A DNA stretch of 45,335 nucleotides from assembly GCA_017475265.1 (NCBI GenBank), contig JAFVFY010000095.1:1-45335 (forward strand), given 5' to 3'. This DNA comes from Prevotella sp. (lineage in GTDB: Bacteria > Bacteroidota > Bacteroidia > Bacteroidales > Bacteroidaceae). The notes under the pieces are model-generated. The model ran no database searches, was not told the DNA's origin, and worked only from the letters and a program-made list of their open reading frames with translations. Of this stretch, positions 14,834-26,296 are shown piece by piece; position 1 is the first letter of the stretch, and the number at the start of each line of letters is the position of its first letter. The translations under genes and the position numbers were made by a program.

Positions 14834-16153
14834 GAAAAACGTGTTTCTGATTTCATCCTCCGTCATCATCTTCTCGACCCTGACGTCCTGCACCTCGTCG
14901 CCCTCAGCGGCGGTGCCGACAGTGTGTGTCTGCTGTTGTTATTGCTGCGCTTGGGCTACCGTGTGGAGGCCATGCACTGCAACTTCCACCTGCGGGGGGA
15001 GGAAAGCGACCGCGACGAGGCTTTCGTGGAGTCTTTATGTCAAGATAAAGGCGTGCCCCTCCACCTGGCACACTTCGACACCCGTGCCTACGCCGACCTT
15101 CACCACGTGAGCATTGAGATGGCGGCCCGCGAATTGCGCTATTCCTGGTTCGAACAGTTGCGGCGAGACCTAGGGGCAGCGACCATCTGCGTGGCCCACC
15201 ATAGCGATGACAATGTAGAAACAATACTCATGAACCTCCTGCGGGGCACTGGTCTTCGTGGTCTGCAGGGCATACAGCCCCGGCGTGGCCACATCGTCCG
15301 CCCCCTGCTCTGCGTCAGCCGCGAAGAGATAGAGCAGTGGCTGCACGAACAGGGCCAGCCCTTCGTCACCGACTCCACAAACACCGTGGCCGACGTGGTT
15401 CGCAACAAACTCCGCCTCGACATCATCCCCCGCCTGAAAGACGTCTTCCCACAAGCCAACAGCAACATCCTTTCCACGGCCCATCTCGTCAGTGAGGCCC
15501 TACGCGTCTACGACCATGCCATCAGCGAGCAACTACGCCTTATAGCTGGTGACGGTTCTTCCATCAGCATTGACGAACTGTTGCACGAGCCCTCGCCAGA
15601 GAGCCTCCTCTTCGAGTGGCTCAGCCCCAAAGGCTTCTCTTCGCACACCATTCTCCAATTAAGCCAGATGCTCCCCACTATCAGCTCTGGTCGCGAATGG
15701 TCATCGGCCACCCACACCCTCGTCTGTCACTCCGGCCATCTCCTTCTCTCTGCCATAGAAGAGCAAAGAGGCCCCCTGCTCATACCAGAGCCGGGGACCT
15801 ACGTCTACGATGACAAGACGAAGTTCCGCCTCACCATCCATGAAGGCCAGCACATAGAGCGCGACAATCCCAACGTCTGCTGTGCCGACGCTTCCACCAT
15901 CGCCTTCCCCCTGGAGCTTCGTCACATTCGCCAGGGCGATCGTTTCCGTCCCCTAGGCATGAAGGGCACCCGACTGGTAAGCGATTTCCTTACCGACCTG
16001 CACCTCTCCATCATCGACAAGCGCCGTCAGCTCGTTCTCTGCGATGCCCACGGCAACATCATCTGGCTCATCGGCCGCCGCATGGACGACCGCTTTAAGG
16101 TAACGGAAAAAACAACAAAGACCTTAGTAGTCTCTTCAGTAGACGCGATCTAA
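14831..16153 (+). CDS. tilS: tRNA(Ile)-lysidine synthase
   Basis: Converts the wobble C34 of tRNA-Ile(CAU) to lysidine using ATP and lysine, so the tRNA reads AUA. The PP-loop motif VALSGGADS is at residues 23-31, followed by MHCNFHLRGEESDRDEAFV, the AREL(R)YSWF region, HHSDDNVETILMNLLRGTGLRGLQGI and VTDSTN. C-terminal TilS domain shows FRPLGMKGTRLVSDFLTDLHLS near the end. 440 residues, normal for the family. ATG 14831 is embedded in the last unit of a heptamer array, with no recognisable ribosome-binding site. No promoter seen nearby. Confidence 0.95.
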   Translation: MEKRVSDFILRHHLLDPDVLHLVALSGGADSVCLLLLLLRLGYRVEAMHCNFHLRGEESDRDEAFVESLCQDKGVPLHLAHFDTRAYADLHHVSIEMAARELRYSWFEQLRRDLGAATICVAHHSDDNVETILMNLLRGTGLRGLQGIQPRRGHIVRPLLCVSREEIEQWLHEQGQPFVTDSTNTVADVVRNKLRLDIIPRLKDVFPQANSNILSTAHLVSEALRVYDHAISEQLRLIAGDGSSISIDELLHEPSPESLLFEWLSPKGFSSHTILQLSQMLPTISSGREWSSATHTLVCHSGHLLLSAIEEQRGPLLIPEPGTYVYDDKTKFRLTIHEGQHIERDNPNVCCADASTIAFPLELRHIRQGDRFRPLGMKGTRLVSDFLTDLHLSIIDKRRQLVLCDAHGNIIWLIGRRMDDRFKVTEKTTKTLVVSSVDAI

Positions 16154-16542
16154 TTTATTAATTGTGCCGAATTCGACATTGCTGCAAGTTGACTGTAACT
16201 TGAAACGCCATAGCCCGTTGTTGACCTAAATCACAAAAAGGCACCATATAGACAGGCACCCATTGCACTTTCATTTACCATAGTGAATCAGATGGACCGT
16301 CCCCGCGATTCCGCGAACTCCCTTTGTGATGCGCCTAACTTCTTTTGTGATGTATTATCACTCTTTTGTGATGCTGACCCATCCTTTTGTGATGGCATTT
16401 GTGATGCTTCATCCTTCTTTTGTGCTGATTTCCAAAACAAAATTATAGTATATCTGCGTCCTTTCAATAGTTACTCACTCACCTGTAAGCAATGGCTCTT
16501 CTGTTGAATAAGTTAACGAGACATTGCCCGGCAAGCTTGAAC
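16154..16542. other. Intergenic region with a 21-bp periodic repeat
   Basis: Between tilS and the convergent AlbA_2-like remnant. Apart from the repeat at 16323-16425 I see no promoter. A plus-strand frame (ATG 16292 or upstream, to 16507) runs through the repeat but resembles no family. Confidence 0.45.
16323..16425. repeat. 21-bp periodic TTTGTGATG repeat
   Basis: The word TTTGTGATG or a one-base variant occurs six times; its first G falls at 16326, 16347, 16368, 16389, 16401 and 16422, i.e. steps of 21, 21, 21, 12 and 21. On the plus strand it reads as the heptad-like peptide FFCDxxx. Confidence 0.85.
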
Positions 16543-17064
16543 TTAAACTTCATTGTTGTTTAGCAATTCTTTTCCTTTTTCTGTAAGTGAATAACTTTGT
16601 TTAGGACTACTTGGCGCATCTGTCAACGTTGGAACAACCAATTCTGCGTCTATCAGATGTGATAATAAGTTACGTTTGAATCTGTTCCTATTTTTTTCGT
16701 TGACCAGTTTCATTAATGCAGTCGTAGGTAAAGCCTCTAGTTTTACCGCACGCATTATAGCTATAGCATCTTCCCTATGCCTAAAAAACATCTTAGGACA
16801 AACTTGGGACAAAGCGACAAGCTTAGGACAGCTTGGGACAAATCTGTGTTTGCGACATTCTTTACGACATCTCCGACATTGGCTGTCACATCTACCATCC
16901 TCTCCCTTAAACTTAACATACTGCACATACAGGCCAGGCATGAAACGACGGGGATGTTTACAAAACAATACCATAGCGGCATACGTGGGGCATTGGTGCT
17001 CCATATCATACATACCTACTGCGGCCATCTGCTCCTCAATAGGGCGGCTGTCAGTATCAACCAT
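16543..17064 (-). pseudogene. Degenerate C-terminal part of an AlbA_2-type (Schlafen-like) ATP-binding protein
   Basis: The 173-codon frame begins with RPIEEQMAAVGMYDMEHQCP and CPTYAAMVLFCKHPRRFMPG, then LYVQYVKFKGED, which resembles the middle of AlbA_2/AAA_4 proteins (normally ~400-500 residues). It then passes through a Cys/Arg/Lys-rich stretch encoded by GACAT and CTTAGGACA / TTGGGACAA repeats, and ends in a winged-helix-like segment (ALMKLVNEKNRNRFKRNLLS, YSLTEKGKELL). The N-terminal AlbA_2 domain is missing: upstream the DNA switches to the start of a different gene, rhuM-like. I read it as a deletion remnant, though it could still be expressed. Confidence 0.5.
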
Positions 17065-17147
17065 ATCCTTAGCTTCACCTCAATACGTGCCTCACCGTCT
17101 GGCGTCTGGTATAATAGTAATTGTCCTTTGTCTGTTTCCATATTCAT
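17016..17147 (-). pseudogene. RhuM-like N-terminal stub joined to the AlbA_2 remnant
   Basis: From ATG 17147 the minus strand reads MNMETDKGQLLLYQTPDGEA then RIEVKL, the typical start of RhuM-type virulence proteins (usually ~330 residues with WLTQAQMAELF next). After about 26 residues the match ends near 17070 and the frame runs on without similarity to a TAG at 17016-17018, while the AlbA_2 remnant is read in another frame. It marks a deletion junction between two genes. RhuM genes are often found beside restriction systems in Bacteroidales. Confidence 0.6.
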
Positions 17148-17732
17148 ATTGCGTTTGCAAAGTTCTTTCTTTATGAAAGCGACCAAAGGTCGAGCGAATC
17201 AATTATTCCGTAATGGTTTGTTTATCTGCCCTTTTATCTGCCCTTTCATATTAGCTGATTTTCAGCTGGTTAAAAACAATTTGCTTACTTGCTTGTTTGC
17301 TTATTTATCCGCCCTTTTATCTGCGCAGATGAACGCACTATTGGCCAGGGTATTATTGCCCAATGCCATATTAATGGTCTCAATCCTTACCAAGAGTCTG
17401 ATCGTATAAAGGCTGCAAATGATATCGCTGATATGGCAGATTCCATTGTCGGCAGTATCGGCAGATTCCAATGGGACATCGCTGTAACACGTATAGGCCA
17501 GCTTGCATCAGAAATGATACTCTCAACGGGCTTGAAATCACACACAAGTCCGTCTATTCTCGTCTAATCTCGTCTAAATTCTCGCTTAAATCTCGCTTAA
17601 AGTCGCTTAAATTTTCTCAGTGCAAATGTCCTATATAAAGGGCTTTCCAAGGATTCTCGCTTAAAATTCCACTTAAAGTCACTTAAATTCTCACTTAAAG
17701 TCGCTTAAATCTTACTTAAAGTCGCTTAAATC
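17148..17732. other. Decayed region with short repeats
   Basis: A plus-strand frame around 17335-17567 (reads DERTIGQGIIAQCHINGLNP and on) looks protein-like but matches no family I know and has no own start; it may be a fragment. From 17560 to 17745 the sequence is made of CTTAAA-type repeats, including the 21-bp unit TCGCTTAAATCTTACTTAAAG near 17700-17740. No promoter seen. Confidence 0.4.
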
Positions 17733-17745
17733 TTACTTAAATGCC
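17560..17745. repeat. CTTAAA-type tandem repeats ending in the DUF1016 gene
   Basis: Successive words TCTCGTCTAA, TCTCGCTTAAA, GTCGCTTAAA, TTCTCACTTAAA and TCTTACTTAAA fill the stretch, with a 21-bp unit repeated at its right end. The last unit supplies the stop codon of the DUF1016 protein. Confidence 0.8.
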
Positions 17746-18224
17746 TCGTTTATGTCCTTTGTCTTATGCAAAATCTCCATGTGGTGCGAGAAACTGATAC
17801 CAAGAAACTCTTCGCGATTGATTTCGGTCGCCGTCGGCGACCATTTTGTCAACGAGAAATAATCATGTGTTATGGATTCTCTTGCGCTGTCCAATGTCAA
17901 TTCGGTCGCCATTGGCGAGCGATTTAGGTATTGTGACCAAAACTCTGCAAACATACGCATCTTTTTGATGCTTTCTTCTGAGAATCCTCGCAAACCCGGC
18001 AGTTCTCTTCGCAGTTGTTCGCTGATTACCTTGATGGCTCCTGTACCCCATGTTCCTTTACGAGAGTTTGCTGAAACATAAAGTCCTACACCAAAATACA
18101 GTGATAGTTGCGTACCGCTAATCATTCTTGCAGCACGCGACTGGCTCTGTAGAATAGCCCCTTTGATAGTTTGAACAGCTTGTTTTAATTCTGCTGTCAG
18201 TATGCTTTTATTCTCTGCGTTCAT
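17733..18224 (-). CDS. DUF1016 N-terminal domain protein, nuclease half missing
   Basis: Start ATG 18224 (MNAENKSIL); the longer frame from 18233 would use TTG. 163 residues. Sequence SRAARMISGTQLSLYFGVGL YVSANSRKGTWGTGAIKVIS, with ELRRELPGLRGFSEESIKKM RMFAEFW, matches the N-terminal domain of DUF1016/YhcG proteins, and FLGISFSHHMEILHKT is the usual junction to the PD-(D/E)XK nuclease domain. The frame stops there, inside a tandem repeat, so the ~180-residue nuclease half is absent. Two 17-bp GGTCGC palindromes lie inside the gene. Last gene of the defence operon, 27 bases after the methyltransferase stop. Confidence 0.75.
   Translation of the reverse strand: MNAENKSILTAELKQAVQTIKGAILQSQSRAARMISGTQLSLYFGVGLYVSANSRKGTWGTGAIKVISEQLRRELPGLRGFSEESIKKMRMFAEFWSQYLNRSPMATELTLDSARESITHDYFSLTKWSPTATEINREEFLGISFSHHMEILHKTKDINEAFK
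17826..17842. repeat. GGTCGC-N5-GCGACC palindrome, copy 1
   Basis: GGTCGCCGTCGGCGACC, a perfect palindrome with a 5-base centre, inside the DUF1016 gene and read as WSPTAT. Confidence 0.9.
17904..17920. repeat. GGTCGC-N5-GCGAGC palindrome, copy 2
   Basis: GGTCGCCATTGGCGAGC, the same architecture with one mismatch, 78 bases from copy 1 in the DUF1016 gene and read as RSPMAT. Confidence 0.85.
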
Positions 18225-18251
18225 ATTCTTCAAACGACACTTAATGATTGA

Positions 18252-21200
18252 TTATTGCTCCTTTTCGTATTCCTCTCGTGTAATTGGAGTCTCTGGATCT
18301 ACAATGAGGACTTCATCGTAGGTCAGGCCGTAGAGGTGATAGACGAGAAGGTCGATTTCTGATTCCAAAGCATATGTGTCTCTATTTTCAGAAGTTTTGG
18401 CTTCAATTATTTCACAAACTAGTGAAATGAGGTTAGCTTGAATATCAATATTAGGAATGGCAATAGGCAAAGACTCCAAAGGTCTTTTCTTAATTTTGGG
18501 GAACGTCTTTTTTGAATCAGAGAATCTAACTTTCCAATAATAGTGCATAACTTTTGAATTAATAATGCCCAAAAGATATTTAATGTCTATTTTATCATTC
18601 TTAAGATAAATATTGTAAATGGTGTTCATTGTATATATATGTGGCGGGCATAAACATCCATCGGGATATTCTCCAATTTGGCGAACAAGAATACGTTCTT
18701 TTGAGTAGACAATAGGGTTCCCTCCACTCTTTATTGCTTCGGGGTGGAAATTGACATATTCGTTATGAGGCAGAAGGCAATAATGTTTAACATTCACCCC
18801 ATCTACCACAGGAACAAACTCACTGTTTACTTTGTATGTCGCCACATAAGTTTTCCTATCAAAAGTTTGTATTCCAAAATAGGCTGATGCAAATTCACAT
18901 AGTAGTGGGTGTTTGTTTATCTTTTTTATTATAAAATCACTATTATATCCATTATTTGTATTAAATTCATAAAAATATTTTGGCGGTTGTATCATCATTT
19001 GATTGTATTCAGAGAATACAGGGTCGTTTATTTCAGTAACAGACTTTTTTATATCTACGACTTTAATTGCACATTTAGTGTTGAAACATTTTTGGCCTAT
19101 AAAAATAGCATTGTCAACAGATGCGTTTTCAAACAAAGAAATGTGAAATCTTACCAACCATAGAATGGAAGTTTGAGAAACTAATATATTGCGTAACTTA
19201 TCATTATGTTCATTCATCAAGTATGAAATTGGAGTAATCAATGTAATAATGCCATTTTTCGAACACAAATAACAAGACTGTTCCATGAACAGATGGTATA
19301 GATCTACTTTATATTGAGGGCACTTATATAAAGCTAAATATTTGTTTTGTATCTCTGAAGGGATAGATGAGTTCTGTAGTAACACATAAGGAGGATTACC
19401 TATAATAATATCAAATCCCGTAAAGTTCCCCTCCTCATCCAATAATGCAGGAAACTCAAAACGCCACTCAAAAGCTTGGTCATAGATTTTGTTGGACTCT
19501 ATTTCTTCACGCTGTTGCTCTAATACTTTGAGCTCTTTCTGGAGAGCCCTGATTTTCTTCTCGTTCTCTTTCTTTTTATTACCGAAGAAATCACCCATCT
19601 GCAAGTTATCTATGGCTCCGCGAACTTTTGCAATCTTTCCCATTTCTTCTTTGCTGAGTTTGGTTTTGACAGCCCGCTTGATGTCTTCAATTCTCTGGCG
19701 GAAATCGTCTTTCTGTGTATGGTCAGAAATGTTCGTGTAGTCATATACCCACTGGCGATAGTCATCCAAGGTGTAGTTTGTGCCGTTCTTTTGGTTGTAG
19801 TCTTTCAGTACATTCTGGAATGGGGCATCTAATGGGAAACGATGGAGCAGGGAGTCACCACACATAATCTTATAATCGAGGTTGGGTAGTGGCTGCGGCT
19901 CGTTCTCGTCAACAACCAGTGCCAACCAGAAGCGCAAGCGGGCTATATCTACGGCTCCCTTTTCTATATCTACACCATAGATGTTGTTCTGAATGATGTC
20001 ACGTTTTACCTTTGCGTATGAGAAATCTTCATTCTTGCCTATGAAGCCATACAACAGATGACGGCAATCAAACAAGACATTCAGCACACCCATTGGGAAT
20101 GCCCCTGAGCCAATGGCAGGGTCACAGACTTTTACTACAGCCAAGGCTTTGTTGACCAGTCTTGCATTCTCTTTGTTTTGTAGAATCGGCTCCACCACTC
20201 TTTGTTTGATGAGGGAGTCAATGGCGGTATGCAACTCTTCAGGCGTATTGCTTTTCAGATACTGGGCAACACTCTCCTTGCTCATATACTGCACTATCTC
20301 TTTGGGAGTGTAGAAGGCACCTTTGTCTTTATTGTCCTCCAATAAGTTCTCGAAGATGTGGCCAAGCATTTCCGGGTCGATGCCGATTTCTGAGTCTTCA
20401 GGATCGTTTTCGTCAATAGTGAAGTTATACATGGCGAAGAAGTCCATGAGTTCCTTGAAATAGTCGTATGGGAAATCAATGTCTTTCTTGTCTAACTCGT
20501 CCTTGTCGAAAAGTCCACCATTAAGATAAGGAATTTTGATGTTATCACCTAAGCGAGGGTCAGCGAGGTCATTAGTTCTGCGTTCATTGAGGGTGTTGAA
20601 GAAAAGAGGTTCAAGGACATCGCTCAGCAGACGGTCATTACCCTCATAACTTTCTATTAAGTGGTTCAGATAGAACTTGTCGCCACCGTTCCAACCTTGC
20701 TGGTTGGCTGGCACACCCATCCAGCCCTTCTTCTGCAAGAACTGAAGGAATACCAGACGGCCTAAGAGTTTCTTCACATAGTCACGGTTCTCCTTTGTGT
20801 CGTCATTGATGTGCTTGAGGAACTTCACATAACGCTCCTTGTAGCCATTGAAGAAATCCTTGTTTAGGCGTTCCACCGAGAAGGCATCCTTGATGTTCTC
20901 AAACGAGATGCCGTTGCGCTGTAGGGCATCGAAGCGTCCGACAGGGGTATTATAGTAGTTGTCACTTTCTCCGAATACGTAAGTAAAACGTTTTGCAGCA
21001 GTGTTCTCGCCCTTGATGTCGCAGACAAAAGACAAACGCCAAGTAAATTTACTATTTACGAATTTACTATTTACGATTTTGGCGGAGCTGCTGTCAAAGA
21101 CTACGAGGGCAGCATCAAACTCACCCCAATTGGGATTGATGAATGACTTGACAAGATTGCGCAAGCCGACACGTTTGCGGGCTACATTGCCATGCTGAAT

Positions 21201-21410
21201 CTGATAATAGAACAAGCCGATACGGTAGCTGTCGGTGGTGTCGATGGCTCCAAGGTAGTAGCCTTGCTCGTCATCGGCAGTTCCTTCAATGCGCTCAGGT
21301 GCTGCTTTCAACTCCGTAGCGTGGAAATAGCTGCGCAGCATGGTCTGCCATTCCTGCTGATTGAACGGCTGCTGGAATATCTGTCGGAGGTTGTCTTTTG
21401 TATAGGTCAT
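18252..21410 (-). CDS. Eco57I-type adenine DNA methyltransferase (restriction/defence)
   Basis: 1052 residues, ATG 21410. Predicted N6-adenine DNA methyltransferase of the Eco57I/PglX-like class: GHIFENLLEDNKDKGAFYTP K (about 350-370), AdoMet motif I CDPAIGSGAFPMGVL (429-443), YGVDIEKGAVDIARLR, and catalytic motif IV IIIGNPPYVLL (669-678). The C-terminal ~370 residues look like a TaqI-type target-recognition domain (YLLGIINSKVMHYYWK, KTFPKIKKRPLESLPI). I see no clear nuclease motif in the N-terminus, so cleavage may rest with the PLD-helicase partner. Residues ~108-122 (NSKFVNSKF) are encoded by inserted TTTACGAATTTAC-type repeats. The target-recognition part is visibly more AT-rich than the rest. 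15 bases after the ORF6N gene. Confidence 0.85.
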   Translation of the reverse strand: MTYTKDNLRQIFQQPFNQQEWQTMLRSYFHATELKAAPERIEGTADDEQGYYLGAIDTTDSYRIGLFYYQIQHGNVARKRVGLRNLVKSFINPNWGEFDAALVVFDSSSAKIVNSKFVNSKFTWRLSFVCDIKGENTAAKRFTYVFGESDNYYNTPVGRFDALQRNGISFENIKDAFSVERLNKDFFNGYKERYVKFLKHINDDTKENRDYVKKLLGRLVFLQFLQKKGWMGVPANQQGWNGGDKFYLNHLIESYEGNDRLLSDVLEPLFFNTLNERRTNDLADPRLGDNIKIPYLNGGLFDKDELDKKDIDFPYDYFKELMDFFAMYNFTIDENDPEDSEIGIDPEMLGHIFENLLEDNKDKGAFYTPKEIVQYMSKESVAQYLKSNTPEELHTAIDSLIKQRVVEPILQNKENARLVNKALAVVKVCDPAIGSGAFPMGVLNVLFDCRHLLYGFIGKNEDFSYAKVKRDIIQNNIYGVDIEKGAVDIARLRFWLALVVDENEPQPLPNLDYKIMCGDSLLHRFPLDAPFQNVLKDYNQKNGTNYTLDDYRQWVYDYTNISDHTQKDDFRQRIEDIKRAVKTKLSKEEMGKIAKVRGAIDNLQMGDFFGNKKKENEKKIRALQKELKVLEQQREEIESNKIYDQAFEWRFEFPALLDEEGNFTGFDIIIGNPPYVLLQNSSIPSEIQNKYLALYKCPQYKVDLYHLFMEQSCYLCSKNGIITLITPISYLMNEHNDKLRNILVSQTSILWLVRFHISLFENASVDNAIFIGQKCFNTKCAIKVVDIKKSVTEINDPVFSEYNQMMIQPPKYFYEFNTNNGYNSDFIIKKINKHPLLCEFASAYFGIQTFDRKTYVATYKVNSEFVPVVDGVNVKHYCLLPHNEYVNFHPEAIKSGGNPIVYSKERILVRQIGEYPDGCLCPPHIYTMNTIYNIYLKNDKIDIKYLLGIINSKVMHYYWKVRFSDSKKTFPKIKKRPLESLPIAIPNIDIQANLISLVCEIIEAKTSENRDTYALESEIDLLVYHLYGLTYDEVLIVDPETPITREEYEKEQ
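21041..21085. repeat. TTTACTA/TTTACGA repeat inside the methyltransferase gene
   Basis: AATTTACTATTTACG occurs twice in a row and continues into ATTTTGGCGG. The words resemble the repeat inside hisF (TTTACGATTTACGAATTTTC). In frame, read as NSKFVNSKF. Confidence 0.75.
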
Positions 21411-21425
21411 AGCGGTAATTACTTT

Positions 21426-22088
21426 TTATTGATTGTCGTCTTGTATAAAGCCTATTTTCCGTCGCGGTTTCTGACGAGGCTCTTTGGATTGAAGTTCTGC
21501 CAGTGCTAATGTAATATTGTCGAGTTGCATACGAGTACTCTCGTTGATGTCGTTCTGGTCATGAAGGATGTCTTCAATGTCAAGTTTCAGTTCTTCGAAG
21601 TCCTTACGCAACTGGGCGATGTCGGCATTTGAATTGGGCAAAGCAAGAGAGGTGGCCATGTGGCGGAACTCAACAAAGGCTCGCATAATCTCACGATTTA
21701 TATGGATAGCGGTCTCGGAATTAAGCACACTGCTGAGCATAGCTACGCCAAGTTCAGTAAAAGCGTATGGAAGATATTTCGAATGTTGTCCTCTCCCTTT
21801 GTTTAAGGTCGCATTTTGCGACCTTAAACGAATAGAATCGTCCAAATCCCCTGTTTCTAAAGGCGTTTCTAAGGTCGCAAAATGCGACCTCAATGCAATC
21901 CGTTCTGTTTCATCTTTTGTCAAACGAAACATAAAGTCATCACCTTCGAAACGTTTGTCATTTCGTCTTACAGCCTCGTTCAAGCGCTTGGTCTCTACAC
22001 CATACAAGGCTGCCAAATCGCGATCAAGCATGACGCGCTGACCACGTATTTCAAATATCTTGTTTTGTATTAGTTGTAGGTCTGTCAT
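21426..22088 (-). CDS. ORF6N domain protein in the defence operon
   Basis: 220 residues, ATG 22088. The N-terminal ~90 residues match the ORF6N DNA-binding domain: NKIFEIRGQRVMLDRDLAAL YGVETKRLNEAVRRN, then FEGDDFMFRLTKDE. Next come PYAFTELGVAMLSSVLNSE and INREIMRAFVEFRHM, then a coiled-coil-like C-terminus (about 155-205) with a basic end. Such KilA-N/ORF6N proteins are known from phages and mobile elements and may act as regulators. The middle (residues ~66-95) is encoded by two GGTCGC palindromes and reads RSHFAT and RSQNAT. 45 bases after the helicase stop and 15 before the methyltransferase ATG. Confidence 0.85.
   Translation of the reverse strand: MTDLQLIQNKIFEIRGQRVMLDRDLAALYGVETKRLNEAVRRNDKRFEGDDFMFRLTKDETERIALRSHFATLETPLETGDLDDSIRLRSQNATLNKGRGQHSKYLPYAFTELGVAMLSSVLNSETAIHINREIMRAFVEFRHMATSLALPNSNADIAQLRKDFEELKLDIEDILHDQNDINESTRMQLDNITLALAELQSKEPRQKPRRKIGFIQDDNQ
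21801..21829. repeat. GGTCGC-N5-GCGACC palindrome, copy 3 (extended)
   Basis: A perfect 13-bp stem, GTTTAAGGTCGCA (21801-21813) against 21817-21829, with a TTT centre. The shared 17-bp core is 21807-21823. Lies within the ORF6N gene and is read as RSQNAT. Confidence 0.9.
21872..21890. repeat. GGTCGC-N5-GCGACC palindrome, copy 4
   Basis: AGGTCGCAAAATGCGACCT, perfect 8-bp stem with an AAA centre; core 21873-21889, 66 bases from copy 3. Read as RSHFAT in the ORF6N protein. Confidence 0.9.
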
Positions 22089-22133
22089 AGGTTTCTTTTA
22101 TTTCAGTAACCATTAGTTGCCGATTTTAGGGGG

Positions 22134-25100
22134 TTATATAAATGTTTCGGAAATAATGATTTGCGGGTCGCTGACCTTTGGAACTGCCTGTTCTTGCATT
22201 TGTTCACTCATGGTCTGGTATTCGCCAATCAGTTCTGACAGCGTTTTCTTCAGTTTTGCCTCGTCGGTCTTGATTTGCACTTTGTCGCCTTTGTAAGGTT
22301 TTGACAAGTCACGCAAACGGCGAGGTAACTGGGTGTATATACCTTTATTAATATAGTCAGTAAGAATATGGCACTGCACCTTTGTTGTATTGTCTGGAAT
22401 TACCTGAGTAATCTTACGAAGGAAGTTGAGGGCAGTCTTTGAGATGTTATCAAGGTCAGTACGATTGATGGATGACTCATCGGCAGCCTCTACATATTCC
22501 TTGGTGTATCTGCTCAAAGCACGATTCACATGTTCGTAATTCTTACTGTCAGCCAGGAACGGAGCGGCTTGTTCTTCCGGCTTTGCCTTCAGATACTTGA
22601 TGGCCTCCAAGAAATCGATAGGCTTTACGGTCTTATCGGTAGCAAGATAGAACTCAGTCTTGACATCGGACGAGACATAGACAATAGACTTATCCGTATG
22701 TTTGTCTGTGCTGCGGGCCACGCGACTCTTCAACGGCAATTGCTTAACCTTGTCGTATAGTTCGCGGTTGTTGTGATAGACCTCACGTAGTTCACGTATC
22801 AATGCTAACTTCTCGTCCATGCTGTCCTTCACGTTGCTGTCGAACATCTGGAACTGCTTGACGATTTCTTCCTTGGAATAGATCTGCACATCTTCGCCAA
22901 AAGCAGAATGGAAACCCTGTAACTTGACAAGCGCATTTTCATAGAGTTTAATCTGCTCATTACCCTGGGGAGAGGGGTAGAACATATAATTATAGATAAA
23001 CTCTGCCACAGAGCCAATACGATTCACACGTCCAATGCGCTGCATCAACCGGGAGGCATTCCACGGAGAATCATAGTTGACAATGATATGAGAACGATGC
23101 AGGTTTACACCTTCTGCCAAAACATCAGAAGTGAGAATGATGTTGTATTGGTCGTCCTGCACTTCGCTATTGGCATCGAAATTCTCCTTGATGATAGAGG
23201 CCTTCTTGTCGCGATTGTCAGCAGTAATGGTCAGTATGTCTTTCCTTCCCAATTCATTTTCTAATCGGCCTTTGAGGTAATTCAGGGTATCAACACTTTC
23301 AGAGAATACCACCAACTTTCCTGATACGTTCCGGCTGTCGAAGAATTCTGTTTCAAGTTTCTTACGGAACAGGTCATATTTCTGGTCATCGTGTTCTTTC
23401 TGCCAATCGTCATTCAAGGCTTCAAGTACCTGTTTGTCGTGACGGAGCATTTCGATGAAATCAGGTTCGAAATCGTCAGACTTATAAAGAATATCGCTTT
23501 CTTGATAGCCTTTCTTCATGGCCAGTTCAATAATCTGGTCTAATTCCATACCTTTTGCCTGTAACTCCTTCACATTCAATTCTGGTGCAATAATCACCTT
23601 GTTTTCGGCAAACATCTTCAGCATATCGTTGGTGATACGAAGTAAGGTAGCCAACGAGAGCTTGAAGGCATGGAAACTACTTTCCAGACGCTTCACCATG
23701 TGAACACGATAGATACCTGCCAACGTCTGGCCAACATGAACTGCGTTGCGATACTTGGCGCGATATTCAGGTTTTAGGAACTCCACCGCACGATAACGAG
23801 CATAATACAGATGCGGATCAAACTTGTCATCCGAAAGGACGTTCAAGGTATAAAAGAATCGTTGACTTGTATCAGCATCCATCTTATACTCAAGCGAGAT
23901 TGGAGGCTGTGGCTTTGGGAAGATGATACCCTGCGCCTGTAAGTCTTTCTTGTATTCCGGGTCGTTCTCGATGTTATGACGAGTTCGACGAACCGTCACC
24001 TTGTCAATCACCCTCCCACGAATAGCCTCATAGATCTTGTCCACGTCAGCGGTCACATCGCGTGTCTCGCGTTCCTTCATTAACAGGTTGTATGCCTTGA
24101 TATGCTCTGCAAAAAAGCCTTTCAGATTGGGAATACCATCGATGGTACAGTTTTGACTGTCTTGGAATAACAATAGCAAATTAAGTAAGTCATCAGGACG
24201 ATTGTTAAGAGGTGTTGCAGAAAGCAGCATCACTTTCTTACGTTGGTTCTTCAGAAGACCAGCGTTTACGCAATCAGCTTTACATATCTTTTGTAGTTCG
24301 TCGTACTTACCAGCACCATCGTTACGGAAACCATGTGCTTCATCGACGATAATCAAATCGTATTCTTCCTTTGCCTTGTATTGTTCCTTACCATCTAATA
24401 CACACGATAGTTTACCATTGGTAATAAACTGTGCTTTATGCTTAATACCAAACAACTTGAAAGTGTTCTCCCAGTTTTCTCGCAAAGCAGGAGGAAATAT
24501 CACCAGAATGCTGGTATTCTTACCATTGGCCTCTATGAATCGCTTGGCTATCATGGTGGCTATCATAGTCTTGCCAAGACCTACCACATCAGCAAGGAAC
24601 AGACCATTATGACGCATGAGCATCTGGAATCCTTGTATCACTGCGTCCGTTTGGTACTTCAATTCCATCACGCCATTGGGCAACTGAATGGAGAAATCAT
24701 CTTCAATTTGGTCTCCGAAAGTATCAATGAGTACCTTTAAATATATTTCGTATGGTGTAGGCTGATAACCTAAGTAGGTCTTTTGCTTGATACTTTCAAC
24801 ATCATCGATAGTCAATGTGATGGCCTCTTCCCATAATTTCTTAAACTCAGAATGGCAATAGTCAACATCATCGAAGTCCTTCATGGCTACATTCAACTCG
24901 TATCGGGGTGACTGTGTGGTGCCAAGTCCAGAATCTGAAATATTGGAAGAGCCCATGATAACCCAACCATCAGTATTCTCATTGTGATTATGGGGAAGAC
25001 AGAGGTAGAACTTTGCGTGGAGATTCTTGGTGGCGTGAATCTTCATCTGGAGTCTGCCATCTATGAGGTCTTGGCACATCTGCAAGATACCTTCCTCCAC

Positions 25101-25412
25101 TTCTGGAGCATACCGGGCATTGACAATATCCTGACGGAATTCCTCATCATAGACCATCTTTGCTTTTTCCTCGTTTTCCAGCATCAGCATAGCTTTATTG
25201 TGGCGACGGAAAATATCGTCAATATTAATACCAACTAATATCTTGATCTCTTCGACATCGTTCAACTCTTTGCGTAGTTTGAAATATCCAGAAGAACGGA
25301 AGAAACCCACAACTGCCAGGAAACGGTCGAAGTTGGCCATGTTTGTGGCAATACCCTTCAACTTGTCGAAAAGGGTATGACCTGTATCGTTATTGAAAAA
25401 TTTACTTCTCAT
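22134..25412 (-). CDS. PLD-nuclease / SNF2 helicase fusion (defence)
   Basis: 1092 residues, ATG 25412. Residues ~20-200 form a phospholipase D-like nuclease domain with one HxK site, NLHAKFYLC (H132, K134), and IMGSSNISDSGL (GSSN 154-157). An SNF2/HepA-type helicase follows: Walker A LADVVGLGKT (273-282), DEAH box LIIVDEAHGFRND (357-360), LLSATPLNNRPDD (398 on), and in the second RecA lobe SDVLAEGVNLHRSHIIVNYD with RLMQRIGRVNRIGS. The C-terminal ~250 residues are uncharacterised. Such PLD-helicases occur with Eco57I-type methyltransferases in restriction-like loci, where they are presumed to translocate on and cut unmodified DNA. First gene of the four-gene operon. Confidence 0.88.
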   Translation of the reverse strand: MRSKFFNNDTGHTLFDKLKGIATNMANFDRFLAVVGFFRSSGYFKLRKELNDVEEIKILVGINIDDIFRRHNKAMLMLENEEKAKMVYDEEFRQDIVNARYAPEVEEGILQMCQDLIDGRLQMKIHATKNLHAKFYLCLPHNHNENTDGWVIMGSSNISDSGLGTTQSPRYELNVAMKDFDDVDYCHSEFKKLWEEAITLTIDDVESIKQKTYLGYQPTPYEIYLKVLIDTFGDQIEDDFSIQLPNGVMELKYQTDAVIQGFQMLMRHNGLFLADVVGLGKTMIATMIAKRFIEANGKNTSILVIFPPALRENWENTFKLFGIKHKAQFITNGKLSCVLDGKEQYKAKEEYDLIIVDEAHGFRNDGAGKYDELQKICKADCVNAGLLKNQRKKVMLLSATPLNNRPDDLLNLLLLFQDSQNCTIDGIPNLKGFFAEHIKAYNLLMKERETRDVTADVDKIYEAIRGRVIDKVTVRRTRHNIENDPEYKKDLQAQGIIFPKPQPPISLEYKMDADTSQRFFYTLNVLSDDKFDPHLYYARYRAVEFLKPEYRAKYRNAVHVGQTLAGIYRVHMVKRLESSFHAFKLSLATLLRITNDMLKMFAENKVIIAPELNVKELQAKGMELDQIIELAMKKGYQESDILYKSDDFEPDFIEMLRHDKQVLEALNDDWQKEHDDQKYDLFRKKLETEFFDSRNVSGKLVVFSESVDTLNYLKGRLENELGRKDILTITADNRDKKASIIKENFDANSEVQDDQYNIILTSDVLAEGVNLHRSHIIVNYDSPWNASRLMQRIGRVNRIGSVAEFIYNYMFYPSPQGNEQIKLYENALVKLQGFHSAFGEDVQIYSKEEIVKQFQMFDSNVKDSMDEKLALIRELREVYHNNRELYDKVKQLPLKSRVARSTDKHTDKSIVYVSSDVKTEFYLATDKTVKPIDFLEAIKYLKAKPEEQAAPFLADSKNYEHVNRALSRYTKEYVEAADESSINRTDLDNISKTALNFLRKITQVIPDNTTKVQCHILTDYINKGIYTQLPRRLRDLSKPYKGDKVQIKTDEAKLKKTLSELIGEYQTMSEQMQEQAVPKVSDPQIIISETFI

Positions 25413-25590
25413 ATTCAGTATCTATTAGTCTGTGATATGTTCTTTATTATCACATGCATATTCTCCCAATGTCCAGTCATATTGCTCCCTACTCTAGCGA
25501 TAGCCCCTTCTCCTTCAAATCCGGCAATCGTTTCTTTCCTGTAGTGGGGTGTTGCATGGCTCCTTGTTTTTTCTTTTATAAATGCCACTG

Positions 25591-25618
25591 CAAAGATACA
25601 CAATTCCCCTGATACAAA
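25591..25618 (-). promoter_or_regulatory. Candidate promoter of the defence operon
   Basis: Minus strand: TATCTTTG at 25591-25598, a good -7 box. The nearest TTTG is at 25615-25618, only 16 bases away, shorter than the usual 19-21. It would give a leader of about 170 bases before the helicase ATG. Confidence 0.45.
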
Positions 25619-25698
25619 CGAAGAAATGAAAAGGATTTAATACTTTTTGCGATATAGAGAGGGCGAGTAGCAGAAATAGGGCGTTTAGGTGACAGAAG

Positions 25699-25780
25699 TA
25701 TGATACTTAGGTGACAAAAGTATGATACTTAGGTAGCGCAAATATGATACTTAGGTAGCGTAAGTATGATAGTTAGTCGT
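25699..25780. repeat. Four 22-bp iteron-like direct repeats
   Basis: The word TATGATACTTAGGT (last copy TATGATAGTTAG) starts at 25699, 25721, 25743 and 25765, an exact 22-base step. The units differ in the linker (GACAAAAG, AGCGCAAA, AGCGTAAG). A weaker unit precedes them near 25683 (TTTAGGTGACAGAAG). Confidence 0.9.
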
Positions 25781-25847
25781 TACAAACGGCATAGATTGAT
25801 GGAGAGTTACACATTTTCGTTGTGACAAACGAAGTAAAGAAAAAGGA

Positions 25848-26296
25848 TGCAATTTTTCTCACGAAAAGTATTTGAAAACACTATACATTCCTACATTTTT
25901 GTTGTAACTATCTAAAGATAAAAGATTTAGCTTATGTATAGAGCCTACATTTTTAATAAGCTCTATACATTCATTGAGAAAGGACGTAGGTTGATGGCAA
26001 AAATAGCTTATCTAAGTGTCGGATAATCAGTTTGTTTCACTTTGTTTCTCCCGTGGAAACAAACAGTTTCAACGGTAGAAACTAACAGTTTCCACGGAGG
26101 AAACTGAAACTAAGGTCGGTTATTGTTACTGCTTTCCTCCGTTATGTATGTGGATAAAGTCCATTTACTGCCTATGTATAGTGGCACTATAAAATGTATA
26201 GTCTATACATAAACTAACATTCTGTATATATGTAAGTTACAAGAAAAATGTAGGAATGTATAGTGAAATCAAAAAAAGTTCGTGAGAAAAATTGCA
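25848..26296. mobile_element. 449-bp element with 61-bp inverted ends (MITE-like)
   Basis: Left arm 25848-25908 and right arm 26236-26296 are inverted repeats. The outer 18 bases, TGCAATTTTTCTCACGAA, match exactly; a 13-base stretch of equal length has diverged; and the inner 30 bases differ at one position. Inside lie ATGTATAGAG/CTCTATACAT and CCGTGGAAAC/GTTTCCACGG inverted repeats and many GTATAG words. No frame encodes a transposase. Confidence 0.65.
26052..26110. repeat. GTTTC/GAAAC inverted repeat cluster
   Basis: CCGTGGAAAC and GTTTCCACGG flank an inner series of CAGTTTC and AGAAACTAA words, then GGAGGAAACTGAAAC. A perfect 10-bp outer stem can form, with nested 5-bp stems. It lies inside the 449-bp element. 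Confidence 0.6.

Follow-up and report, generated by a model that had tools for sequence, protein, structure and literature searches.

The contig JAFVFY010000095.1 of a Prevotella sp. assembly (GCA_017475265.1), analysed over its full length of 45,335 nucleotides and hereafter called the window, raises the question of why one 17-bp palindrome, GGTCGC-N5-GCGACC, should occur twice in each of two different genes of a single candidate defence operon. The hosts are an ORF6N-domain gene (21426..22088, 220 amino acids) and a short DUF1016_N gene (17733..18233, 166 amino acids), both on the minus strand. The original prediction offered three roles: a peptide-coding palindromic repeat that spreads in frame, a recombination site, or a binding or modification site of the system itself. 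Comparison of the gene families concerned supports the binding site and sharpens it. The palindrome is very probably the target of the helix-turn-helix (HTH) protein encoded by the same gene, a site written in the gene's own codons; this is predicted from a coupling between protein residues and palindrome bases across relatives.

All four copies were located in the window, three of them perfect. In the DUF1016 gene, copy 1 (17904..17920; RSPMAT, amino acids 105–110) carries one mismatch and copy 2 (17826..17842; WSPTAT, amino acids 131–136) is perfect. In the ORF6N gene, copy 1 (21872..21890; AGGTCGC-AAAAT-GCGACCT on the plus strand) encodes RSHFAT (amino acids 67–72), and copy 2 (21801..21829) extends to a 29-bp palindrome, GTTTAAGGTCGC-ATTTT-GCGACCTTAAAC, which encodes RSQNAT (amino acids 89–94) at the canonical place before KYLPYAFTE. 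The shared codon phase of the four copies and the in-pair start-to-start distances of 78 bases (DUF1016 gene) and 66 bases (ORF6N gene), both reported at the outset, were confirmed. Scanning the window at up to two mismatches gave six matches, against a mean of 1.65 and a maximum of 5 in 100 shuffles.

A scan of the organism's own genome (4,750,954 bases) yields four exact sites, against one for a reversed control. Three belong to the window, and the fourth sits in the one further gene that the ORF6N model recognises there. With one mismatch allowed, 15 matches stand against 24 for the control, which is no excess. A genome-wide chance rate, named beforehand as an observation that would undo the interest of the motif, is thus excluded for the exact pattern, and the one-mismatch count is not above control. 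The fourth exact site is read in a different codon phase, as AVANCDL, so that the DNA palindrome is kept there and the peptide is not. Other ORF6N palindromes encode peptides as different as RCQIG, RFQFG, VANCD and VENFD, with the palindrome retained in each; the possibility that an RSxxAT peptide persists because the protein needs it was not borne out. Among 100 genomes (this one and 99 relatives), 13 contain the exact pattern: in six, this genome included, a viewed site falls in an ORF6N gene, and in seven the viewed sites lie in other open reading frames (ORFs) or between genes. One relative (G069; for example loci L014 and L017) holds 27 pattern sites, apparently intergenic and of a different repeat family; its listed sites read GGTCGCT-NNN-AGCGACC, and the three viewed sit inside a longer AACGGGGTCGCT...AGCGACCCCGTT repeat.

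Palindromes of this kind recur across the ORF6N family. An initial reading of 78 of 80 loci (L096 and L123 were left out) found many palindromes of up to 35 bp, with diverse arms, at one shared codon position just upstream of KYLPYAFTE. In 238 non-redundant genes, reduced from 246, a perfect arm of at least 11 bases was present in 83 genes, mostly at one place, against 0.2 expected from synonymous codon shuffles; for arms of at least 9 bases the figures were 100 genes and 4.4. A chance origin was ruled out by these codon shuffles together with the window shuffles and the genome control. Arm sequences vary from gene to gene with self-complementarity preserved, and some ORF6N and DUF1016 genes hold two to three in-gene copies. 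Of 111 ORF6N palindromes with arms of at least 9 bases, 96 are centred on codon base 1 and 14 on base 2; seven of these 14 occupy the canonical place with an unrelated peptide, and the others lie near or before the start codon or elsewhere.

Complementarity was also measured at sites placed by protein alignment alone, with no selection on pairing, in 227 of the 238 ORF6N genes and in 70 of 71 RhuM genes. In ORF6N, each of pairs 3–13 is complementary in between 168 and 201 of the 227 genes; pairs 4 and 10 are Watson–Crick in 200 of 227, where column independence would predict 76 and 120. At pairs 1, 2 and 16 of these sites there is no or almost no excess of complementarity, and at pairs 14–15 a weak one. 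A separate count on 218 of the 238 genes (best phase-0 centre, at least six of pairs 3–10) gave the same picture, with counts biased upwards. In the ORF6N gene of Sulfuricurvum the long perfect palindrome is absent, yet seven of eight pairs are retained at the site.

Related families behave similarly. Arms of at least 11 bases were found in 18 of 50 DUF1016 genes (0.1 expected), 10 of 29 RhuM genes (0.1 expected; 29 of 30 loci used), 6 of 30 Bro-N genes including DinD-like ones (0.05 expected) and 7 of 27 KilA-N genes (0.05 expected). HsdS genes from the same group of genomes, serving as control, had arms of at least 10 bases in 0 of 28 cases (0.1 expected) and of at least 9 in two (1.05 expected). 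The place of the palindrome is mostly fixed within each family, and the core differs between families. Arms of about 10 bp flanking a 5-bp centre are common to ORF6N, RhuM and DUF1016, unlike KilA-N and DinD, in which the centre is even. In larger sets, at least 9 of 10 pairs were formed in 55 of 71 RhuM and 49 of 94 DUF1016 genes, against 3.2 and 2.4 in shuffles; the RhuM and DUF1016 site sets kept only sites at this threshold, so that near-perfect pairing and a low mismatch count are partly built in. At alignment-placed RhuM sites, pairs 3–7 are complementary in 65–66 of 70 genes (19–37 expected) and pairs 11–12 in 65, pairs 8–9 are relaxed (46 and 48 of 70), and pairing stops at 13–14. Two strict blocks separated by a relaxed gap would fit a protein contacting two half-site faces better than a hairpin. 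In 800 kb of one chromosome, a stretch picked to contain known DUF1016 and Bro-N genes, 17 palindromes with arms of at least 10 bases lie within 623 ORFs and 31 more outside them; three DUF1016 genes and one Bro-N gene account for 7 of the 17, and other or doubtful ORFs for 10. At locus L012, an apparently non-coding region upstream of a DUF1016 gene (about 1380–1620) contains four or more palindromes resembling those of ORF6N and DUF1016, as though such genes or sites had been left to decay there.

To identify what the palindromes answer to, we asked which protein columns outside the palindrome vary together with it. In 211 of the 238 ORF6N genes (at least 8 of 10 pairs; 194 at the main alignment column), the two best of 119 columns (z 8.6 and 5.1) fall within the helix ETKRLNQAVKRN; in RhuM, the six best of 116 columns fall within the stretch VSKSNISE. 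Judged by place and sequence, both stretches appear to be HTH recognition helices. The recognition residue is encoded about 20 to 50 codons upstream of the palindrome, that is, outside it, and the palindromes downstream of the helix codons would lie in the wing region of the domain.

The coupling takes the form of a simple rule. In ORF6N, the helix residue in the best-scoring column predicts the base at arm position 4: Q with A in 87 of 90 genes, E with G in 57 of 60, R with C in 38 of 38 and K with C in 17 of 17, or 199 of 205 in total. At alignment-placed sites without pairing selection, the rule is followed by the left arm in 204, the right arm in 191 and both arms in 190 of 221 genes. In RhuM, the corresponding counts, from which residues seen once were excluded, are E with G 17 of 17, K with C 11 of 11, R with C 7 of 7 and L or M with A 13 of 13. 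The residues shared by the two families obey one rule, and the rule derived from ORF6N therefore predicts RhuM in 35 of 35 cases. A helix R is accompanied by G at position 7 in 8 of 8 RhuM genes and, in DUF1016, in 19 of 19 sites with at least nine pairs and 24 of 28 among all 75 sites, these 75 coming from 94 genes. Textbook contacts are glutamine with adenine, arginine or lysine with guanine, and glutamate with cytosine. The rule appears chemical in kind, with the arginine or lysine–guanine and glutamate–cytosine contacts then lying on the other strand. The window conforms: its ORF6N protein has R35 and E38 in the putative recognition helix ETKRLNEAVRRN (amino acids 32–43; codons at 21960..21995, minus strand, with E38 at 21975–21977), the class paired with arm state CGC at positions 5, 4 and 3, and both of its sites carry CGC. 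A helix-fitting self-site also occurs on a 2,955-base Segatella copri plasmid (L159), on which a replication gene and an ORF6N gene are the only two annotated genes.

Several checks used material that had played no part in finding the rule or allowed for shared ancestry. ORF6N phase-1 sites with other peptides, unused in finding the rule, obey it in 11 of 13 cases; of the two misses, L253 fits on its other half-site and L223 looks mis-centred. RhuM genes of other phyla (Campylobacterota, Pseudomonadota, Bacillota, Actinomycetota plasmids or phages, and a Wolbachia phage) were sampled as 15 of 100 listed matches, out of 170 matching records. In 14 of the 15, codon phase and place of the best palindrome are unchanged; 11 score at least 9 of 10 pairs, L461, L464 and L468 score 8 at the same place, a score reached by shuffles in 8–14 of 50, and L467 has its best centre elsewhere. 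All 10 scorable genes obey the RhuM rule; the unscored ones are L458 (uncoded residue) and L460, L462 and L465 (helix unparsed).

Descent was taken into account with a tree built from ORF6N columns without helix and palindrome, covering 205 of the 211 genes (residue Q, E, R or K). It placed 66 residue changes and 67 base changes, 53 of them on a shared branch against 10.8 expected, and 50 of these 53 follow the rule. Among disjoint pairs of closely related ORF6N genes differing in the residue, 94 of 96 differ in the base and 91 follow the rule on both sides; among close pairs with equal residue, 5 of 97 differ in the base. R–K pairs were omitted from this comparison, since both residues predict C. 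Two copies outside the reading frame are also informative. In L056, one of three genes that combine helix Q with an in-gene site outside class A, a palindrome that fits stands some 10 nt ahead of the presumed ATG, after an unrelated gene; in Butyrivibrio, L156 has a fitting 29-bp palindrome copy shortly before its start. Upstream copies as a group were not used as evidence, because several (for example L019 and L057) encode the canonical peptide and may derive from neighbouring ORF6N genes or pieces of them; L056 and L156 are the only ones read in detail.

A number of observations weigh against this interpretation. Mismatched ORF6N sites are common, with 9 of 10 pairs in 105, 8 of 10 in 27 and five or fewer in 22 of the 227 genes, and extra copies near ORF6N sites are barely closer to their own gene's site than to those of other genes (mean 5.7 versus 5.9 of 15 differences). 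On the tree, 13 of the 66 residue changes occur without a base change and 14 of the 67 base changes without a residue change. The pair contrast is weaker in RhuM, where the base differs in 16 of 26 residue-differing pairs against 0 of 23 residue-equal ones, and in DUF1016, with 16 of 22 against 4 of 20. DUF1016 is the weakest case among the families: some columns outside its helix score as high as the helix, and its pair test had too few pairs. A further 31 ORF6N-associated palindromes, inside the genes or close by, could be scored against a coded residue; the rule holds for 19 and fails for 12. In the open frame it holds for 14 of 15, outside it for 5 of 16; some of these outer palindromes are rich in AT or are part of adjacent genes, and a handful of the fits look like chance. 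L001, with helix Q, has one CGC-class in-gene site among its CAC sites. Finally, recombination that moves helix and palindrome jointly could explain part of the co-change.

On balance, an operator for the gene's own HTH protein, embedded in the gene's codons, is the best overall explanation, and we regard it as probable. As to the use of such self-binding, autorepression is the customary one, and we lean slightly towards it. A dimer would bind the palindrome within its own gene and there repress or road-block transcription of that gene and of later genes in the operon. In the window these would be a Type IIG/PglX-like DNA methyltransferase gene (Eco57I, N6_Mtase and TaqI_C domains; 18252..21410, minus strand), downstream of the ORF6N gene, and the DUF1016 gene; in some other loci, hsdS after rhuM would be affected. 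A road-block inside a rhuM or ORF6N gene could tune the level of the genes behind it. Six plasmid loci of Pseudomonadota or Campylobacterota have restriction–modification (R-M) neighbours: in five, rhuM lies between the methyltransferase and specificity-subunit genes and overlaps or abuts the former, and in the sixth it precedes a helicase gene. Nine other rhuM records had no R-M setting annotated in the stretch viewed. A site placed within the reading frame would let self-control accompany the gene to any new promoter, and drift in specificity would lead relatives to recognise different sites.

More broadly, it seems rather likely that ORF6N, RhuM, KilA-N, Bro-N, DinD and DUF1016 are self-addressed mobile HTH families, in which a gene encodes both a reader and its address. 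With similar confidence we expect that comparison of such genes would yield a natural protein–DNA recognition code, each allele forming its own recognition group.

The operon of the window can be described in the same terms. By strand order, the first of its four genes encodes a PLD (HKD) and SNF2-type helicase protein (22134..25412, minus strand), followed by the ORF6N, methyltransferase and DUF1016 genes. The ORF6N protein matches PF10543 with 113.4 bits (curated Pfam cut-off 27.8); the DUF1016 protein matches PF17761 with 57.2 bits (cut-off 32.8), through the N-terminal domain alone. Both families are listed by PADLOC as defence candidates (PDC-S05 for ORF6N, PDC-S02 for DUF1016). The helix column of the DUF1016 protein holds E, a residue with too few cases in the DUF1016 set to score, and of the 75 DUF1016 sites, 2 have TCGC at arm positions 6–3, the window's own among them. 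The GGTCGC arm common to both genes of this operon may reflect chance or cross-recognition. Immediately 3' of the DUF1016 gene (17595–17730, minus strand), TTTAAGCGACTTTAAG(T) is repeated four times, twice exactly and twice with a single mismatch, where 0.05 copies are expected in shuffles. A 173-amino-acid ORF at 16543–17064 (minus strand) matches the C-terminal domain of Fic-like proteins (PF21247) and is possibly the remnant of a larger gene beside the operon.

The alternative that survives best accepts self-binding and differs about its purpose. It holds that binding serves self/non-self recognition, an incoming element of the same allele being bound (exclusion or immunity) or the DNA of related elements being marked or targeted. 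The genes are often multi-copy and found on plasmids and phages, the exact window motif recurs in the genome only in the other ORF6N gene, and both families are defence candidates. ORF6N paralogues at the same locus (L129, L137, L224 and others) also tend to differ in the recognition residue, with 4 of 25 pairs equal and 0.32 expected; the effect is a weak one, measured on pairs that are not mutually independent. The copies right before the start codon in L056 and L156, on the other hand, resemble ordinary operators, and we consider this purpose possible and rather doubtful.

Far less credible is that hairpin-templated mutation (template switching) keeps the palindromes perfect without any function. 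Support comes from two DUF1016 paralogues of genome G045 (C1:685846 and C1:698359; L344), which differ by an inverted 3-base loop and one compensating pair; most loops also occur as their reverse complement, a loop-inversion symmetry that is only suggestive. Such a process would not couple arm bases to helix residues outside the palindrome and would not leave RhuM positions 8–9 relaxed between blocks at 60–66 of 70, and the HsdS genes of the same genomes are free of such palindromes; mutational concerted evolution alone was rejected.

A selfish, peptide-coding palindromic element inserted in frame is less probable still. The corresponding part of the original prediction stands insofar as copies multiply inside some ORF6N and DUF1016 genes, and the exact motif outside ORF6N genes in 7 of 13 genomes could be counted in its favour. 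The use of two codon phases cuts both ways, being compatible with a mobile element and opposed to spread in a single frame. A mostly fixed place, diverse arms, a family-specific core and the arm–helix coupling argue against it. Rickettsia palindromic elements are likewise palindromic DNA in protein-coding genes; they are longer inserted elements in unrelated genes, whereas the palindromes here are short, stay mostly at one place and are coupled to the protein that the gene encodes. An element of that type would appear as the same sequence at varied places in unrelated genes, and what was found is one place and an own core per family.

Two further explanations deserve hardly any credence. A messenger RNA (mRNA) hairpin acting in translation control or processing would be in keeping with long complementary stems and loops of about 5 nt in coding sequence. 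At pairs 3–12 of alignment-placed sites, however, G·T mismatches are no commoner than A·C (47 versus 94 in ORF6N, 19 versus 23 in RhuM), which gives no hint of a helix in sense-strand RNA; window positions 15000–26000 gave no Rfam match at the gathering threshold, structured RNA was rejected as a candidate, and a hairpin gives no reason for the helix coupling. Equally slight is the chance that helix and wing residues co-vary at the protein level with the palindrome as a by-product. The palindrome codons do encode residues adjoining the domain's conserved core, but the DNA rule also holds in other-phase sites with unrelated peptides and in the two pre-start copies (L056 and L156), and constraint on the protein does not render two arms complementary. 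The recombination site, considered on anatomy alone, found no support.

If the operator interpretation is true, it gives a testable function to many genes of mobile elements and defence loci that are still uncharacterised, namely sequence-specific binding of a target legible in the gene itself. The families would also provide a natural data set connecting recognition-helix residues with DNA bases. An operator written in codons would be inseparable from its gene, so that self-control would be kept through horizontal transfer.

A search of open-licence literature, mostly titles and abstracts, found nothing on in-gene palindromes of these families, and a sequence search of solved structures gave a best E of 0.57. 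Three published systems bear on the proposal, each judged from the part of the source available. ORF6N, KilA-N and Bro-N have been described as domain-swapping proteins within a 'Bro network' of phage-type proteins (PMC10111431), where the portion at hand makes no mention of an in-gene self-site. RhuM in R-M loci has been proposed as a toxin domain (PMC3710099); it is the same gene family in the same R-M setting as the RhuM analysed here. The co-variation reported here points instead to a sequence-specific DNA-binding domain with a self-site, and other parts of the protein may have a toxin role. Nearest in role to the self-site genes is RptR (PMC12255303), the autorepressor of type I R-M defence islands: this small DNA-binding protein recognises palindromes and represses the island to which it belongs. 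The RptR palindromes (TAGCTA) are short promoter sites. Both they and the recognition helix have stayed conserved and have not diversified, and kinship to ORF6N-, RhuM- or DUF1016-type families is not described in that account. The proposed system would resemble the phage immunity repressors in that each self-addressed allele defines its own recognition group.

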